In this document: piece after piece, positions 4,022-48,356 of the stretch
Position numbering within the stretch: position 1 is the first letter of the stretch
Layout: the number at the start of each line of letters is the position of its first letter
From: Flavobacteriaceae bacterium
GTDB lineage: Bacteria > Bacteroidota > Bacteroidia > Flavobacteriales > Flavobacteriaceae
DNA length: 64,000 bases
Reading direction: 5' to 3'
Assembly (NCBI GenBank): GCA_947451525.1
Contig: CANFZM010000001.1
Coordinates: 62,001 to 126,000 of the forward strand
Notes under the pieces: generated by a model
Databases searched by the model: none
Told to the model about the DNA's origin: nothing
Seen by the model: only the letters and a program-made list of their open reading frames with translations
Program-made: the position numbers and the translations under genes

Positions 4022-4555
4022 ATGACTTTTTTAACTAAAAATTTTACTCGAATGAATACACAAAAACTCTTTTTTATACTGTTACTAATAGTAAGTAATA
4101 ACTTACAAGCACAAGAAAAAGCCAAACAAGAGATTAATACTACTTTAAACCATTGGCATCAGGCAGCCGCAGCGGCCAATTTTGAAGATTATTTTTCAGA
4201 TTTAACCGACGACGCTATCTTTATTGGGACTGATGCTACCGAAAATTGGGACAAAATTGCCTTTAAAGTATTTGCCAAACCCTACTTCGATAGTGGAAAA
4301 GCATGGAATTTTACTCCAATTGAAAGACATATCTATTTATCGGAAGATGGAAAAACTGCTTGGTTTGACGAATTATTAGACACCCACATGAAAATTTGCA
4401 GAGGATCGGGAGTATTGATAAAAATTAAAAATAAGTGGAAAATAAAACATTATGTTCTTTCTATGACCATTCCAAATGAGAATACTAATGAGGTGGTAAA
4501 AATAAAATCCTCTTTGGAAGATGTGCTATTATCTAAAGGGAAGCGATTGTATTAA
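4022..4555 (+). CDS. Secreted NTF2/SnoaL-like protein
   Basis: Signal peptide then nuclear transport factor 2-like pattern (HWHQAAAAANFEDYFSDLTDDAIFIGTDATENW). An internal ATG at 4052 may be the real start. Confidence 0.65.
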   Translation: MTFLTKNFTRMNTQKLFFILLLIVSNNLQAQEKAKQEINTTLNHWHQAAAAANFEDYFSDLTDDAIFIGTDATENWDKIAFKVFAKPYFDSGKAWNFTPIERHIYLSEDGKTAWFDELLDTHMKICRGSGVLIKIKNKWKIKHYVLSMTIPNENTNEVVKIKSSLEDVLLSKGKRLY

Positions 4556-4557
4556 AA

Positions 4558-4631
4558 AATAAAAAGGGTGAAATTTCTTTCACCCTTTTTGCCCCAAATC
4601 TACCATAAACTTAACCTACTAATCTCATGGT
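4558..4631 (-). ncRNA. Candidate small RNA, copy 1 (~72 nt), intrinsic terminator at 3' end
   Basis: Minus strand: TTG (4664-4666) - 20 nt - TATATTTG (4636-4643), then TACCACCATGAGATTAGTAGGTTAAGTTTATGGTAGATTTGGGGC and AAAAAGGGTGAAA-GAAA-TTTCACCCTTTTT. Second copy at 5005-5079. Confidence 0.6.
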
Positions 4632-4635
4632 GGTA

Positions 4636-4666
4636 CAAATATAATGGCACAAGAATCTTACTTCAA
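4636..4666 (-). promoter_or_regulatory. Bacteroidota-type promoter of candidate sRNA copy 1
   Basis: TTG-N20-TATATTTG matches the TTG-N17-23-TAnnTTTG consensus. Confidence 0.65.
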
Positions 4667-5004
4667 AATAAAATTGTTCAACTACAGTAAAAATCGATGA
4701 AATACACATTTTTGTTAATTTTAATGCCTAATGTCGTTTAAATTGAATTATATATAATTACATATCGACAAAAAACGCTATTTAGTCTGAATAGTAATTA
4801 TTCATCTACAAACACCAAATATTTGAATTATTTTGAAATAAAATTAATGGATTTAACTTGAAATAAAATTAAATTATCTGATACTTTCTTTTCGATGAAA
4901 GATAACATTCTTATATGTGTTTTTATGAAAGATGGCAAAAAACTAATGCAATGAAGAAAAAGCAATAACAATGTTTTACTTTAAGAGAGATGGTTGCTTT
5001 AAAA

Positions 5005-5079
5005 ATAAAAAAAAGGTGAAATTTCTTTCACCTTTTTTGCCCCAAATCTACCATAAACTTAACCTACTAATCTCATGGT
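5005..5079 (-). ncRNA. Candidate small RNA, copy 2
   Basis: Same transcribed body as copy 1. Terminator AAAAAAGGTGAAA-GAAA-TTTCACCTTTTTT: one G:C pair replaced by A:T on both arms. Confidence 0.6.
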
Positions 5080-5083
5080 GGTA

Positions 5084-5114
5084 CAAATATAAGTCCATAA
5101 GAATCTCATGTCAA
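5084..5114 (-). promoter_or_regulatory. Promoter of candidate sRNA copy 2
   Basis: TTG-N20-TATATTTG; the spacer differs from copy 1 but the -33 and -7 elements and their spacing are preserved. Confidence 0.65.
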
Positions 5115-5168
5115 AATAAAATTGTTCAACGACAGTAAAAATCGATGAAATGCACTTTTTTGTGAATT

Positions 5169-7067
5169 TTAATACGCTCTAGCGTTTTTGCCTTCGTAAA
5201 AATTCATAAATGCTCGATTAACTACACGATTCCCGCCAGGAGTGGGATAATCACCTGTAAAGTACCAATCTCCTAAATTATTTGGACATGCTTGGTGTAA
5301 ATTGTCTATAGTTTGAAAGATAATTTTAACTTCTGCTTGAATAGTTTCCGAAGTTAATAATTGTGCGATTTTATTTGATATTTCAGTATCGGTAAACGGT
5401 GCATATATTTCGGTTACATAGTTTACTACTTCGGCATCAGCCATGTTTTCTTGCGATTTGCATTTAACATAAACCTCATCCACTATGTGGTAAAGATTTC
5501 GTTCTTTTAATAAGGCCATTGTAGCCTGAAAAGCAATAAGCCCTTCTAGTTTTGCCATGTCAATTCCATAACAATCTGGATACCTTATTTGTGGTGCCGA
5601 TGAAACTACAACAATTCGTTTTGGGTGTAATCGATCCATCATTTTAAGGATACTCATTTTTAATGTAGTCCCTCTCACAATACTATCATCAATAATCACT
5701 AAATTATCTGTTGGTTGTATCACGCCATAAGTTACGTCATAAACATGAGCAACCAAATCATCACGACTGCTGTCTTCGGTTATGAATGTTCTAAGTTTGG
5801 CATCTTTAATAGCAACTTTTTCAGTTCGAATTTTAACCGATAGAATTTCTTCCAACTTTTCTTTGGTAAGGGTTTTTCTATTGTTTAAAATAAATTGATT
5901 TTTTCTTTGGTTTAAAAAATCGTTTGCCGCTTCAATCATTCCATAAAAAGAAGTTTCGGCCGTGTTAGGAATATACGAAAAAACAGCGTTATCGGTATCG
6001 TTTTCTATTGCTTCTAATACTGCTGGAAGTATTAATTTCCCCAGATGTTTACGCTCTTGATAAATTTCAGCATCACTTCCTCTTGAGAAATAAATTCGTT
6101 CAAAAGAACACGCTTTTTTAATGGTGGGAGTTGTAATTTCTTGAACTGAAACGGTATTGTTTTTTTTGATAATCAAAGCATTTCCAGGAAGTAATTCCTC
6201 CACTTTTTCAAATGGAACATTAAATACGGTTTGGATAACTGGTCTTTCAGAAGCAACTACTACAATTTCATCGTCTTCATAAAAATATACCGGACGAATT
6301 CCTGCTGGATCTCTTAAAACGAAAGCATCTCCATGACCTAACAAACCTGCCATAGCATAGCCTCCATCCCAACCTTTGGAAGCACGTTTTAATATTTTGG
6401 CAATATCTAGTTTCTCTGCAATTACTGGTGAGGCTTCTCTTTTAGATAAGCCATTATTTTTACATTCTAAATACAAGTCGGTAACCTCATCGTCAAGAAA
6501 ATGTCCTATTTTCTCCATTACGGTAACCGTATCGGCCATTTCTTTAGGATGCTGTCCTAATTCTACCAAACTATTAAAAAGTTCTTTAACATTGGTCATA
6601 TTGAAATTTCCGGCAACGATAAGATTTCGATGCATCCAATTGTTTTGACGCAAAAAAGGATGTACGCTTTCAATGTTATTTTTACCAAAAGTTCCATAAC
6701 GCACATGCCCAAGAAACAATTCACCTATATAAGGAATGTTCGCTTTTTGGAGCGCCACATTATCGGCATATTCAGGATGATCTGCCATTTCTTGATTAAT
6801 TCGCTCATTAATTTGAGCATATACATCTTGAATGGGTTGTGCATCGTTAGATCGAACCCTACTAATGTATCTTTGGCCAGGTTGCACATCAAGTTTAATA
6901 GAAGCAAACCCTGCGCCATCTTGACCGCGGTTGTGTTGTTTTTCCATTAGGAGATACATTTTCTGTACCCCATAGAAAGCCGAGCCGTATTTTTCTTTGT
7001 AAAATTCTAACGGTTTTTTTAATCGTAAAAGGGCAATTCCACATTCGTGTTTGATTGCGTCACTCAT
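5169..7067 (-). CDS. PurF-like amidophosphoribosyltransferase / class II glutamine amidotransferase, 632 aa
   Basis: HECGIALLRL...MEKQHNRGQDGAGFA (Ntn glutaminase) and VIIDDSIVRGTTLK (PRTase PRPP loop). Confidence 0.88.
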   Translation of the reverse strand: MSDAIKHECGIALLRLKKPLEFYKEKYGSAFYGVQKMYLLMEKQHNRGQDGAGFASIKLDVQPGQRYISRVRSNDAQPIQDVYAQINERINQEMADHPEYADNVALQKANIPYIGELFLGHVRYGTFGKNNIESVHPFLRQNNWMHRNLIVAGNFNMTNVKELFNSLVELGQHPKEMADTVTVMEKIGHFLDDEVTDLYLECKNNGLSKREASPVIAEKLDIAKILKRASKGWDGGYAMAGLLGHGDAFVLRDPAGIRPVYFYEDDEIVVVASERPVIQTVFNVPFEKVEELLPGNALIIKKNNTVSVQEITTPTIKKACSFERIYFSRGSDAEIYQERKHLGKLILPAVLEAIENDTDNAVFSYIPNTAETSFYGMIEAANDFLNQRKNQFILNNRKTLTKEKLEEILSVKIRTEKVAIKDAKLRTFITEDSSRDDLVAHVYDVTYGVIQPTDNLVIIDDSIVRGTTLKMSILKMMDRLHPKRIVVVSSAPQIRYPDCYGIDMAKLEGLIAFQATMALLKERNLYHIVDEVYVKCKSQENMADAEVVNYVTEIYAPFTDTEISNKIAQLLTSETIQAEVKIIFQTIDNLHQACPNNLGDWYFTGDYPTPGGNRVVNRAFMNFYEGKNARAY

Positions 7068-10477: not shown

Positions 10478-11731
10478 ATGCAATTAAAGCGTGTTGTTGT
10501 AACTGGTCTTGGAGCATTAACTCCTATAGGTAACTCCATCCAAGAATATTGGGATGGATTAATTAATGGAAGAAGTGGTGCGGCCCCAATAACCTATTAT
10601 GATACAGAAAAGCATAAAACAAAATTTGCTTGTGAAGTGAAAAACTTCAACATTGAAGATTATATGGATCGGAAGGAATCTCGCCGATTGGATAAATTTT
10701 CACAGTATGCAATTGCTTCTAGTGATGAAGCGATTAAGGATGCCGGAATTACACACGATAATGTAAACAAACACCGTGTTGGAGTGATTTGGGGTGCCGG
10801 AATTGGTGGCCTAGAAACTTTCCAAGATGAGGTAATGTATTATGCTAAAGGTGATGGAACTCCAAAATTCAATCCTTTCTTTATCCCTAAAATGATTGCC
10901 GATATTGCTCCTGCTCACATTTCGATGCGTAACGGATATATGGGTCCTAATTATACTACAGTTTCAGCTTGCGCTTCTTCGGCTAATGCCATGATTGACG
11001 CGTTTAACTATATACGATTAGGAATGTGTGACGTTATTGTTACAGGTGGATCGGAAGCTGCTGTAACTATTGCAGGAATGGGTGGATTTAATTCTATGCA
11101 CGCCTTATCTACAAGAAATGATAGTCCAGAAACGGCTTCAAGACCATTCGATGCAACTCGCGACGGATTTGTTCTTGGTGAAGGATCTGGTGCAATTGTT
11201 TTAGAAGAATATGAGCACGCTAAAGCGCGTGGTGCTAAAATTTATTGTGAAGTTGGCGGTGGCGGAATGTCATCTGATGCTTACCATTTAACAGCTCCAC
11301 ACCCAGAAGGAATTGGTGTAATTGCCGTTATGGAAAACACTTTGCGGGATGCTGGAATGACACCTGAAATGGTAGATCATATTAACACCCACGGGACTTC
11401 TACTCCTCTAGGAGACGTAGCAGAATTAAAAGCAATAAGTCATGTTTTTGGTTCTCACGCTAAAAACATCAATATCAACTCTACCAAATCTATGACCGGT
11501 CACCTATTAGGTGCGGCTGGCGCAATAGAATCAATAGCGGTAATTTTGGCAATGCAACACGGTATCGTGCCGCCAACTATTAACCACAAGGTTGTGGATG
11601 AAAACATTGACCCGTCATTAAATTTAACTTTAAATGTTCCCCAGAAAAGAGAAATAAATGTTGCTATGAGTAACACTTTTGGATTTGGAGGTCATAACGC
11701 ATGTGTTTTATTTAAAAAATTAGTAGATTAA
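10478..11731 (+). CDS. fabF: 3-oxoacyl-ACP synthase II
   Basis: VVTGLGALTPIGNS, VSACASSANAM, THGTSTPLGD. Confidence 0.97.
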   Translation: MQLKRVVVTGLGALTPIGNSIQEYWDGLINGRSGAAPITYYDTEKHKTKFACEVKNFNIEDYMDRKESRRLDKFSQYAIASSDEAIKDAGITHDNVNKHRVGVIWGAGIGGLETFQDEVMYYAKGDGTPKFNPFFIPKMIADIAPAHISMRNGYMGPNYTTVSACASSANAMIDAFNYIRLGMCDVIVTGGSEAAVTIAGMGGFNSMHALSTRNDSPETASRPFDATRDGFVLGEGSGAIVLEEYEHAKARGAKIYCEVGGGGMSSDAYHLTAPHPEGIGVIAVMENTLRDAGMTPEMVDHINTHGTSTPLGDVAELKAISHVFGSHAKNININSTKSMTGHLLGAAGAIESIAVILAMQHGIVPPTINHKVVDENIDPSLNLTLNVPQKREINVAMSNTFGFGGHNACVLFKKLVD

Positions 11732-11734
11732 GTT

Positions 11735-12481
11735 TTGAAACGAATTCTTACTAAAATATTTTCTAGAAATTCCCGTCCTAAAGAGGGCGGGAATTTTTTT
11801 GATATAATACATGATATTGTTGGCTTTAAGCCGATAAACTTAAAATATTATAAAAAAGCCTTTACCCATAGATCTTCCAATATCTTAGATGAAGACGGAC
11901 TTCCGTTAAACTACGAACGATTAGAGTTTCTTGGCGACGCAATGTTAAGCGCTGTTATTGCTGCCCATTTATACAAAGTGGTTCCAACAGGCGATGAAGG
12001 TTACTTAACTAAAATGCGTTCTAAAATAGTAAGCAGAGAACATCTAAACGAATTGGGTAGAGACATGAATCTTATTGAATTTGTAGAAAGTAAAGTCCCA
12101 CCACAACATTTTGGAGAAAATATTCATGGCAATCTTTTTGAAGCATTAGTTGGCGCTATTTTTCTAGACAAAGGCTATGTTGGCTGCGAAAAATTTATCC
12201 AAAAACGAGTAATACTTCCCTATGTAGATATTGCCCGATTAGAAGGCAAAGTAATTAGTTATAAAAGTTTGGTTATTGAATGGTGTCAAAAAGAGAAAAA
12301 ACAATTTTTCTATGATGTTTATGACGATAATGGTATTGATGGGCAACGTTATTTTGGAGTTAAACTAAGTATTGACGAAAAAGTAATTGCCAAATCAAGA
12401 GCGACCTCTAAAAAGAAGGCCGAAGAAATTGCTTCTAAAAGAGCCTACTTTGCATTTCAAGAAAAAATTAACAGTATTTAA
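11735..12481 (+). CDS. rnc: Ribonuclease III
   Basis: YERLEFLGDAMLSAVIA signature and C-terminal dsRBD; TTG start directly after fabF. Confidence 0.95.
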   Translation: MKRILTKIFSRNSRPKEGGNFFDIIHDIVGFKPINLKYYKKAFTHRSSNILDEDGLPLNYERLEFLGDAMLSAVIAAHLYKVVPTGDEGYLTKMRSKIVSREHLNELGRDMNLIEFVESKVPPQHFGENIHGNLFEALVGAIFLDKGYVGCEKFIQKRVILPYVDIARLEGKVISYKSLVIEWCQKEKKQFFYDVYDDNGIDGQRYFGVKLSIDEKVIAKSRATSKKKAEEIASKRAYFAFQEKINSI

Positions 12482-22050: not shown

Positions 22051-22262
22051 AGAAGCGAAACTTTGGGGCATTTTAGTAAACGTCTTTCCCGCTTTTCGTT
22101 GCAATCTGTCATTGCGAGGGACGAAGCAATCTAATAACACTATTTCATTTATCGCAATGCCAGGATTTTCACTGTAATCGCGGCTAGCAAGTAATGGTAT
22201 GGAATAGAGGCAAAATTACTAAGAAACCTTTGCGCAAAGTTGACCTTCTGACGAAGGAAGAA
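22051..22262 (+). repeat. Variable-core dispersed element, copy A
   Basis: AGAAGCGAAACTTTGGGGCATTTTAGTAAACGTCTTTCCCGCTTTTCGTTGCAATCT-[core]-AGGATTTTCACTG...GACCTTCTGACGAAGGAAGAA; matches copy B at 30737. Confidence 0.85.
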
Positions 22263-30736: not shown

Positions 30737-30942
30737 AGAAGCGAAACTTTGGGGCATTTTAGTAAGCGTCTTTCCCGCTTTTCGTTGCAATCTTTTTTAT
30801 ATATAGCCCATGGTTTAAACCATGGGCTATATATAAAAAAGGATTTCCACTGCAATCGGGGCTAGATAGTAATCGTATGGAACAGATGCAAAATTACTAA
30901 GAAACCTTTTCGTAAAGTTGACCTTCTGACCAAAGGAAGAAC
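30737..30942 (+). repeat. Variable-core dispersed element, copy B
   Basis: Flanks match copy A; core is a 50-bp perfect palindrome. Confidence 0.85.
30792..30841. repeat. 50-bp perfect palindrome
   Basis: CTTTTTTATATATAGCCCATGGTTT|AAACCATGGGCTATATATAAAAAAG, 25-bp arms, no loop. Confidence 0.97.
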
Positions 30943-45989: not shown

Positions 45990-48356
45990 TTAAAACCAAA
46001 ATCCAACATTGAATCCTATAAATCCTTTGGGTAATTCTGGTGACCAAGAGTATTTAATTTCAAGTGGTCCTAACACGGTTTCTAACCCATAACCTACTGC
46101 ATATCCTGAATATCTAGGTGTTGCAAGCCAATTTCCGGTGCTGAATAATTTATCTTCGGCATTGGCATAATTAGCCGAAAAATTAATGTGGTTTTTTTTG
46201 TAAAACTCAATATCCAAAGTCGCTAAAGCCTTAACATAACTATCGGCAGAGATGCTGATAAAATCATAACCATAAAATTGTTTAAAATTATTGATAGGAT
46301 TAAAACCATAACCTCCAAGCACAAAATCTAAAAAGTGCATGCTTTTTTGTCCAAAAGATAAACCCGCTTCCGATTCAAATTTTAGGTTGATTACTTTGTA
46401 AAAGGTTCGTGTGATTCCTATTTCGGAACTAGCAATGGAGAATCGATTAAATTGATTGGTGTAATTAGAAGAAAATAAATACGATTGCAGATTACTATTA
46501 AAATACCATCCTTTTTTAGGAAAATATTTACTATCCAAGGAATCGTATTTTAAATATCCGAAAACACTTGTGTAATTGCTGTTTTCAAAAACGGGATTGC
46601 TATTTTCTAATGTTTTAGAAGATATTTTTAGGTGTTTTATTTCTACTCCGGCTCCAACAAGGAACTTTTGTTCGAAAATAGTTTGCAAATAGGCCGAGTT
46701 AGTCCAATCGGAATAATCTAAGTTCAAAGAATTTATTCCTAGTTGTTGAAAAACCGAACCATTACTAAAGTCGGTAGCAACATTTTTATTAAACTGATTG
46801 AACAAGGATTTAAATCCGAAACTGAAATAAAATCCATTATCAACATAATAATCTAAATTGTATCTAAAATTATCGCCAATACCTAAATCCACAGACAAGA
46901 CATCATTTTTGAAAAGCGATTTTTTTTGTGTAACGTTTATTAAAGCAGCACTTTTATAAAGCCCATCATAATGCAAACCAAATTTTAAAAAAGTGCTATT
47001 TCCACTTTCTTTAATTGTTAAATCTAGTTCGTCTCCCAAATCCAATTCATTTAATTGGTAACTAATACTAGTGAAATTTCCAGTTGCATTAAGTGTATTA
47101 ATTCCTTGTTTTAATTGCTCGTAACTAATTTTGGTTCCTTGTTTAAATCCTAGTTTACCAATTACATAAGCCCGGGTGTAATCTTTAACATCGTTTATAG
47201 TTATTCTGGTTATATTTATGCTGTCATTTTTACAGTTAAGTTTAAGGTATTGTTTATCCTTTTGTGTGATTTTATTTATTTTATCCAAAACATTTAATGC
47301 AGCATCCTCTCCTTTTTTAATAATTTCATCTTCTTTATCAAAGGAGATTACCGAATATCCTGAAATATCTGGCTTAATATAAATATCGGTCTTACTAATT
47401 TTATTTTGCATCTTTCCAATCATTTGAAGATTGGATATTTGAAGCAGAATTTGCGTGGCTTCCTTTAAGGAGTTCCTGGTTTTTAAACCATCTTGAACAT
47501 CGACTCCAATGATTATATCGGCACCCATTTTTCGCACCTCATCAATAGGATAGTTATTGGAAACTCCACCATCAATAAGCATTTTGCCGTCTATTTCTAC
47601 TGGGGAAAATAGTGTAGGAAATGCCGAACTTGCCAATAATGCTTGGGGCAAACTCCCACTTTTTAATATTTGTTGTTCTCCTGTTTCTATATCGGTAGCA
47701 ATACATAAAAATGGAATTGGCAATTGGTTAAAATCTCTAATATGCCGAACCGAGTGGGTTAATTTGTTTAGCAAATTATAGTTATACATTCCTTTAGATA
47801 AAGCAATTGGAACGCCTATACTAAGTTTTTTAAAGGGTAAAGAAATGGCATACAACTCATCGTTGCGTTTTTCATAAAAACTTTTGTTTGCTCTTGGAAC
47901 GTAATCTTTTAGAAGTTCATTAAAATTAGTGTGATGAAAAATAGAATCAATTTGTTGGGCGCTGTAACCTGTGGCATACAACCCTCCAACTACGGCTCCC
48001 ATGCTGGTTCCTCCAATATAATCTATTTTTACACCTGCTTTTTCTAGCACTTTTAAAACTCCAATATGTGCAAATCCTTTGGCACCACCTCCGGTTAAAA
48101 CCAATCCAATTTTTGGTCGTTTTATGGAATCTTGAGAATAGGTAGTTTGAGAAAATAGAGAAAAGAAAATAGAAAATAGAATAAAGGTTGTAGGTTGTAG
48201 GTTGTAGGTTGTAAGTTGTTTTTGAAAAACAGATTTTTGCAAAATACCTTTACTGCTTAGCCCCGACAGCAACGGAAATCCTTTTTCTTTCTTCTTTAGA
48301 AAGGAAAAGATTGCAGTGTATGGCGGGAAAATGGATTGCAAGTAGGCCTTAAACAT
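45990..48356 (-). CDS. Patatin-like phospholipase with C-terminal outer-membrane beta-barrel; N-terminus overlaps repeat copy C
   Basis: IGLVLTGGGAKGFAHIGVLKVLE, YIGGTSMGAVVGGLYA (GxSxG), POTRA/barrel C-term ending FNVGFWF. True start unclear. Confidence 0.88.
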   Translation of the reverse strand: MFKAYLQSIFPPYTAIFSFLKKKEKGFPLLSGLSSKGILQKSVFQKQLTTYNLQPTTFILFSIFFSLFSQTTYSQDSIKRPKIGLVLTGGGAKGFAHIGVLKVLEKAGVKIDYIGGTSMGAVVGGLYATGYSAQQIDSIFHHTNFNELLKDYVPRANKSFYEKRNDELYAISLPFKKLSIGVPIALSKGMYNYNLLNKLTHSVRHIRDFNQLPIPFLCIATDIETGEQQILKSGSLPQALLASSAFPTLFSPVEIDGKMLIDGGVSNNYPIDEVRKMGADIIIGVDVQDGLKTRNSLKEATQILLQISNLQMIGKMQNKISKTDIYIKPDISGYSVISFDKEDEIIKKGEDAALNVLDKINKITQKDKQYLKLNCKNDSINITRITINDVKDYTRAYVIGKLGFKQGTKISYEQLKQGINTLNATGNFTSISYQLNELDLGDELDLTIKESGNSTFLKFGLHYDGLYKSAALINVTQKKSLFKNDVLSVDLGIGDNFRYNLDYYVDNGFYFSFGFKSLFNQFNKNVATDFSNGSVFQQLGINSLNLDYSDWTNSAYLQTIFEQKFLVGAGVEIKHLKISSKTLENSNPVFENSNYTSVFGYLKYDSLDSKYFPKKGWYFNSNLQSYLFSSNYTNQFNRFSIASSEIGITRTFYKVINLKFESEAGLSFGQKSMHFLDFVLGGYGFNPINNFKQFYGYDFISISADSYVKALATLDIEFYKKNHINFSANYANAEDKLFSTGNWLATPRYSGYAVGYGLETVLGPLEIKYSWSPELPKGFIGFNVGFWF
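48185..48219. repeat. AGGTTGT heptamer tandem repeat (4 perfect + 1 degenerate)
   Basis: aggttgtaggttgtaggttgtaggttgtaagttgt, inside the N-terminal frame of the patatin ORF. Confidence 0.9.
48257..48330 (-). repeat. Variable-core dispersed element, copy C (inverted)
   Basis: TTAGCCCCGACAGCAACGGAAATCCTTTTT-[CTTTCTtctttAGAAAG]-GAAAAGATTGCAGTGTATGGCGGGAAA: reverse complement of the copies A/B core flanks. Confidence 0.75.

Follow-up and report, generated by a model that had tools for sequence, protein, structure and literature searches.

Two closely similar stretches of intergenic DNA stand one after the other behind a purF-like gene in the 64,000-nucleotide window of a Flavobacteriaceae genome analysed here, and the question raised by the locus is what such a doubled unit might produce and on what its product might act. 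The original prediction took the stretches for two direct copies of a small RNA gene, each with its promoter, body, GAAA-loop hairpin and T-run. To our knowledge targets have been assigned to few small RNAs of Flavobacteria and, since translation in Bacteroidota starts without a Shine-Dalgarno sequence, the way in which small RNAs silence mRNAs in Flavobacteria is largely open.

Anatomy of the two units

The prediction of two gene copies holds: 172 bp are present twice as a direct repeat (4554–4725 and 5002–5173; 91% identity, well beyond chance), and these are the only two full-length copies that BLAST finds in the whole 2.84-Mb genome. Both are on the minus strand, flanked on one side by a SnoaL-like gene (4022–4555, plus strand) and on the other by the purF-like amidophosphoribosyltransferase gene (5169–7067, minus strand; TIGR01134 with E 1e-35, which is under that model's cut-off). 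Along the direction of transcription each unit has a direct-repeat box, a Bacteroidota promoter of the form TTG-N20-TATATTTG, four variable bases and then a predicted RNA of 71 nt whose 5′ end is ACCAUGAG; after the variable bases each copy reads ACCATGAGATTAGTAGGTTAAGTTTATGGTAGATTTGGGGC and passes into the GAAA-loop terminator hairpin and T-run that form the 3′ end. The predicted ends follow from promoter spacing and the T-run. Copy 1 would extend over 4561–4631 (minus strand, 5′ end at 4631; 99.2 bits with covariance model R1) and copy 2 from 5079 to 5009 (5009–5079, minus strand; 98.0 bits with the covariance model). When copy 1 is compared within a set of 126 copies, sequence conservation sets in exactly at the A of 4631, the predicted 5′ end. 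Elsewhere in the window there is a weak match to the model (11708–11802, plus strand; 19.6 bits, E 0.14) that overlaps coding sequence and is probably due to chance.

The −7 box occupies 4636–4643 in copy 1 and 5084–5091 in copy 2 (both minus strand), and the TTG of the −33 element lies at 4664–4666 and 5112–5114, respectively. TA..TT of the −7 box is invariant in the 126-copy set and fits TAnnTTTG, the −7 consensus that has been reported (PMC9723704). That the spacer between the two elements has diverged was correctly seen at the outset, though the second spacer had been given one base short (ACATGAGATTCTTATGGACT).

The predicted fold has two hairpins in all: a 5′ hairpin with the loop GUAGGU, which includes the ACCAU/AUGGU stem that had been anticipated, and the terminator, with a single-stranded linker, AGAUUUGGGGC, between them. 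Its z-score is −4.53 for copy 1 and −4.59 for copy 2, and each beats 200 of 200 shuffles. Loop and linker present the seed words GUAGGU and AGAUUUGGGG, respectively, and are exposed at 4614–4619 and 4591–4601 in copy 1 and at 5062–5067 and 5039–5049 in copy 2 (all minus strand). The intrinsic terminator, with a 13-bp stem, GAAA loop and T-run, is at 4561–4590 in copy 1 and at 5009–5038 in copy 2 (minus strand); the former may double as the terminator of the convergent SnoaL-like gene. Only two positions differ between the two transcripts, and these face each other in a single base pair of the terminator, G:C in copy 1 and A:T in copy 2. This compensated change, part of the original prediction, is real and is one case of a more general covariation, with two-sided changes at 6 of the 13 terminator pairs among 30 diverse copies. 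A five-codon ORF, MRLVG, had also been proposed for the RNA but does not survive comparison, as 112 of the 126 copies have ACCATA in place of the ACCATG that its start requires.

Spread and conservation of the RNA family

The observation extends further than first stated, the two copies being members of a small-RNA family. Within the genus, BLAST with the unit matches 48 of 61 genomes, and two of these have the box only, which leaves the sRNA in 46 of the 61. With a 91-nt query about 243 of 301 genomes of the bacterial family match at E≤0.001, a few of the matches being marginal. The covariance-model search that had been suggested as a check was done with a model built from 30 diverse copies; among 41 genomes of the family it matches 33, while it finds nothing in some 207 further genomes of the order and, in a 198-genome sample of the class, nothing beyond the family. 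The RNA family is accordingly broad, reaching roughly four in five of the genomes sampled from a single bacterial family, and it is syntenic. Its members form tandem arrays of one to six copies, and in all 23 stretches with a visible purF the array follows immediately behind that gene, in the same orientation, so that the position noted for the window's pair is a family-wide one. The purF-like gene is the conserved upstream neighbour of the array and lies outside the sRNA itself. An origin from the purF 3′ UTR is ruled out: every copy comes with a promoter of its own, and therefore the sRNA is not a purF 3′ UTR product, and the arrays vary from one to six copies.

When free drift of the body among relatives was looked for, the opposite was seen. 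From the 5′ ACCAT through TTAGTAGGTTAAGTTTATGGTAGATTTGGGGCAAAAA, a stretch that includes a 35-nt core, the 126 copies are close to invariant, and the terminator is conserved, while the spacer between the −33 and −7 elements drifts freely. Selection on transcript and structure, as originally put forward, is borne out by the near-invariant body and can be refined, as the strongest constraint is on what is antisense to mRNA leaders rather than on structure.

No Rfam family matches the sRNA locus at gathering scores; weak sub-threshold matches to STnc40 and HrrF are driven mostly by the terminator and were set aside. A full-text literature search for the core sequence found no description. This is an RNA family absent from Rfam with a conserved, strong predicted target, and its description fills that gap. 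An exact 18-mer, ATGAGATTAGTAGGTTAA, is present in two Prochlorococcus contigs (L065 and L067) that have no match to the sRNA profile, and it is taken as chance.

Antisense leaders and a shared upstream box

Two features were absent from the original prediction, complementarity of the RNA to a gene at another place in the genome and the conserved direct-repeat box that precedes the promoter. The antisense match is strong and falls just ahead of the ATG in a gene, adjoining pdxH, for a secreted lipoprotein with a CAP domain (PF00188; G000:C2:140695–141189, locus L069), and in a genome-wide BLAST this leader is the sole antisense site outside the sRNA loci. The predicted duplex spans −39 to +3 of the ATG with −49.0 kcal/mol (z −8.6 against 500 shuffled sRNAs), and the next best start region among 1120 genes (44% of the genome) has −30.1 kcal/mol, inside the control range. 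A duplex scan of all sequence windows in 44% of the genome gives many sites of −30 to −37 within genes, which were treated as background, and deep inside coding regions chance scores get to −36 to −37, so that only strong leader sites are convincing.

Across the genus z is below −3 for 30 of 31 CAP leaders (median −7.9), the typical motif ahead of the ATG being TTTGCCCCACAATCTACTTTAAACTTAAACTACT, and the strong sites in a genus-wide search with the leader motif are mostly CAP paralogues, some with two sites. The GUAGGU loop is complementary to ACCUAC of the leaders and the linker to GCCCCA(A/CA)AUCU; each half of the leader motif has its complement in exactly one of the two unpaired segments. 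A CAP gene is found in 41 of the 46 sRNA-positive genomes of the genus versus none of the 15 that are sRNA-negative (Fisher p 2e-10, a value that ignores kinship; the negative genomes may form one clade). In the five remaining positive genomes, and in several small genomes of other genera, no CAP gene is detectable, and so there must be other targets unless the gene escaped detection. Pairing of the CAP leaders is weaker in other genera (z below −3 in 9 of 28), and a bipartite motif search there finds the CAP leaders in a short form, CCAAATCTAAATTTACCTACTTATG. At L344 (G045:C146) pdxH has beside it the box and an almost perfect antisense leader of CAP type that apparently no ORF follows; this would be an orphan leader or a decayed gene.

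The same bipartite search in other genera brings to light a microprotein gene that is conserved and carries several sRNA sites. The product has 42–43 amino acids (MNxAPNLPKPTFFE...LTKKIFML), is recognisable in 78 of 251 genomes and has no Pfam or NCBIfam family; its gene (loci L285–L293, L296, L300, L301, L305 and L313) sits between genes for a CoA-transferase subunit and an ABC-transporter ATPase, names that were read from the sequences. At 14 loci the leader and first codons contain one to five sRNA-antisense sites, on average 2.6 versus 0.01 in shuffles, with a median duplex z of −9.0, and one such site, when translated, gives the conserved N-terminus PNLPxPT. The bipartite search also finds a 40-amino-acid membrane-type peptide (MKNFKRLVLLITLIFVASK...) at L176, L181 and L191, with CCAAATCT..CCTACT just ahead of its ATG, and the mRNA is a candidate for another target class.

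The upstream box, TGTATTTCATCGATTTTTACTGTAGTTGAACAATTTTATT in copy 1 (4667–4706, minus strand; PWM score 31.5) and TGCATTTCATCGATTTTTACTGTCGTTGAACAATTTTATT in copy 2 (5115–5154, minus strand; 35.1), has a period of 20 bp and a consensus of roughly TGCATTTCATCGAT followed by GTAGTTxAxCGAT. It recurs in nearly all CAP promoters of the genus, about 125–140 nt ahead of the ATG, with scores of 13–32 versus about −4 for shuffles, and a similar box is present in the microprotein promoters of other genera. In the 44% of the window's genome that was scanned the matrix finds eight strong sites and the reversed matrix none. The box precedes genes for two very large GEVED/fn3 secreted surface proteins and for a DUF3078 protein (C7:16309, C7:21808; C1:178632), which suggests a wider regulon of surface proteins, LytTR-like in character.

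Own promoter and terminator, lack of a conserved ORF and conserved complementarity to start regions of mRNAs encoded elsewhere, all of them seen here, are the features of a trans-acting base-pairing sRNA. What the gene anatomy, conservation, synteny, antisense leaders and shared box, all of them legible in the DNA, are best read as is a multicopy trans-acting antisense sRNA that blocks the start of translation on its target and is controlled together with it, and we consider this reading likely. Each copy would be an independent gene for an RNA of about 71 nt, with transcription from a sigma-A promoter presumably driven by a factor, probably of LytTR type, on the direct-repeat box. Loop and linker would recognise the bipartite leader motif GCCCCA..AUCU...ACCUACU, and pairing that starts at these exposed segments could zip up to a duplex of about 40 nt reaching the start codon, with ribosome entry blocked and translation repressed; that the effect is repression is, like transcription and the identity of the regulator, something we infer. 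The main target, in this genome and throughout the genus, would be the CAP-domain lipoprotein mRNA encoded beside pdxH. Because the CAP promoter carries the same box as the sRNA, regulator, sRNA and target may constitute an incoherent feed-forward loop, and tandem copies would raise the dosage of the sRNA. The predicted target is unusually strong and conserved, which makes the mechanism testable. An extension to the whole family, with one LytTR-type regulator co-activating both the purF-linked array and the mRNAs that it silences (CAP and microprotein), is possible, though we hold it doubtful; the microprotein mRNA would there be at once a target and a sponge that sets a threshold, because the tandem antisense sites in its leader extend into the codons.

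A reversal of roles, with the CAP and microprotein leaders as the regulators and acting as sponges that titrate the sRNA, is unlikely. It would accommodate the up to five sites per microprotein leader, the duplicated sites in some CAP leaders, the apparently ORF-less leader of L344 and the box common to mRNA and sRNA promoters. However, the sites coincide with start codons and go so far as to influence the codons of the N-terminus (PNLPxPT), which is what regulated mRNAs would be expected to show; the window's genome has only a single strong leader with one site; and titration needs another target, of which none as strong was found in that genome. There is only a slim chance that the conserved core is mainly a binding site for a protein, such as one with an RRM, that the RNA sequesters or by which it is carried. 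The core varies less than most pairing seeds do, the FopS sRNAs of Bacteroides bind RbpB via their 5′ part (PMC11697453), and the genome has one RRM_1 protein, yet a protein site fails to predict near-perfect antisense leaders of unrelated genes exactly at their ATGs. Protein binding and antisense pairing can both be true together, and any helper protein of the antisense sRNA is likewise a matter of inference; the single RRM_1 protein (G000:C33:17460–17669) is a candidate partner like RbpB. Activation of the targets, by opening of an inhibitory leader structure or by protection of the mRNA, is very improbable as well. Loss of Rfp18 leads to lower protease mRNA in F. psychrophilum (PMC9723704), and therefore positive sRNA effects exist in the genus, but the −39 to +3 pairing in the window's genome includes the AUG, and translation is repressed where FopS pairs with start codons (PMC11697453). 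The idea of an intergenic repeat of mobile or REP-like kind, or of a chance duplication, with no transcript at all deserves next to no credence: the copies are tandem, identical and intergenic, but they are always behind purF and never scattered, and only a transcript explains the conservation pattern of promoter, core and terminator.

Relation to known RNAs and regulators

Flavo-1 RNA (RF01705) is likewise a conserved RNA motif of Flavobacteria, and its covariance model has no match at the sRNA locus; it does score above its gathering score at three other places in the window (30767–30867, minus strand; 48255–48334, plus strand; 22081–22189, minus strand). Among conserved sRNAs from the same bacterial family are the Rfp RNAs of F. 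psychrophilum, for which mRNA targets have been predicted (PMC9723704). Rfp18, which uses its third stem-loop for pairing and has been connected with metalloprotease mRNAs (PMC9723704), is described with at least three stem-loops versus the two hairpins here, a description by which the present sRNA is probably not Rfp18; it may be one of the other Rfps (Rfp1–89).

With respect to the upstream box, the sites of the LytTR regulator YpdB are GGCATTTCAT repeats, with a word, GCATTTCAT, known for LytTR regulators (PMC4847170) that the sRNA box shares, and the site of AlgR, also of LytTR type, is CCGTTCGTC (PMC4064291). Like the box, these sites are direct repeats with a period of about 20–21 bp. 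The likeness is one of sites only and a lead to the regulator; on this sequence resemblance a LytTR-type protein probably binds the box.

The closest parallel is with FopS of Bacteroides (RF04319, BTncRNA_FopS; PMC11697453), also a set of multicopy paralogous sRNAs of Bacteroidota, about 65–75 nt long, with their own sigma-A-type promoter and terminator, a 5′ pairing region and pairing at start codons; there is even a short common stretch, UUYAUGGU(AUU)AGAUUU. With the FopS model, copy 2 scores 19.4 bits and copy 1 16.8 bits versus a gathering score of 56, and, as locus, arrangement and predicted targets are different too, membership was rejected and homology is not established. FopS copies are dispersed, being intergenic, antisense or in 3′ UTRs, whereas the sRNA here is in tandem behind purF. 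FopS targets susC mRNAs, in contrast to the CAP lipoprotein and microprotein leaders predicted here; in the 44% of the genome examined no susC-type gene is among the strongest predicted targets, the top one being the CAP lipoprotein gene. What further sets the present sRNA apart from FopS is the upstream box that it has in common with its targets.
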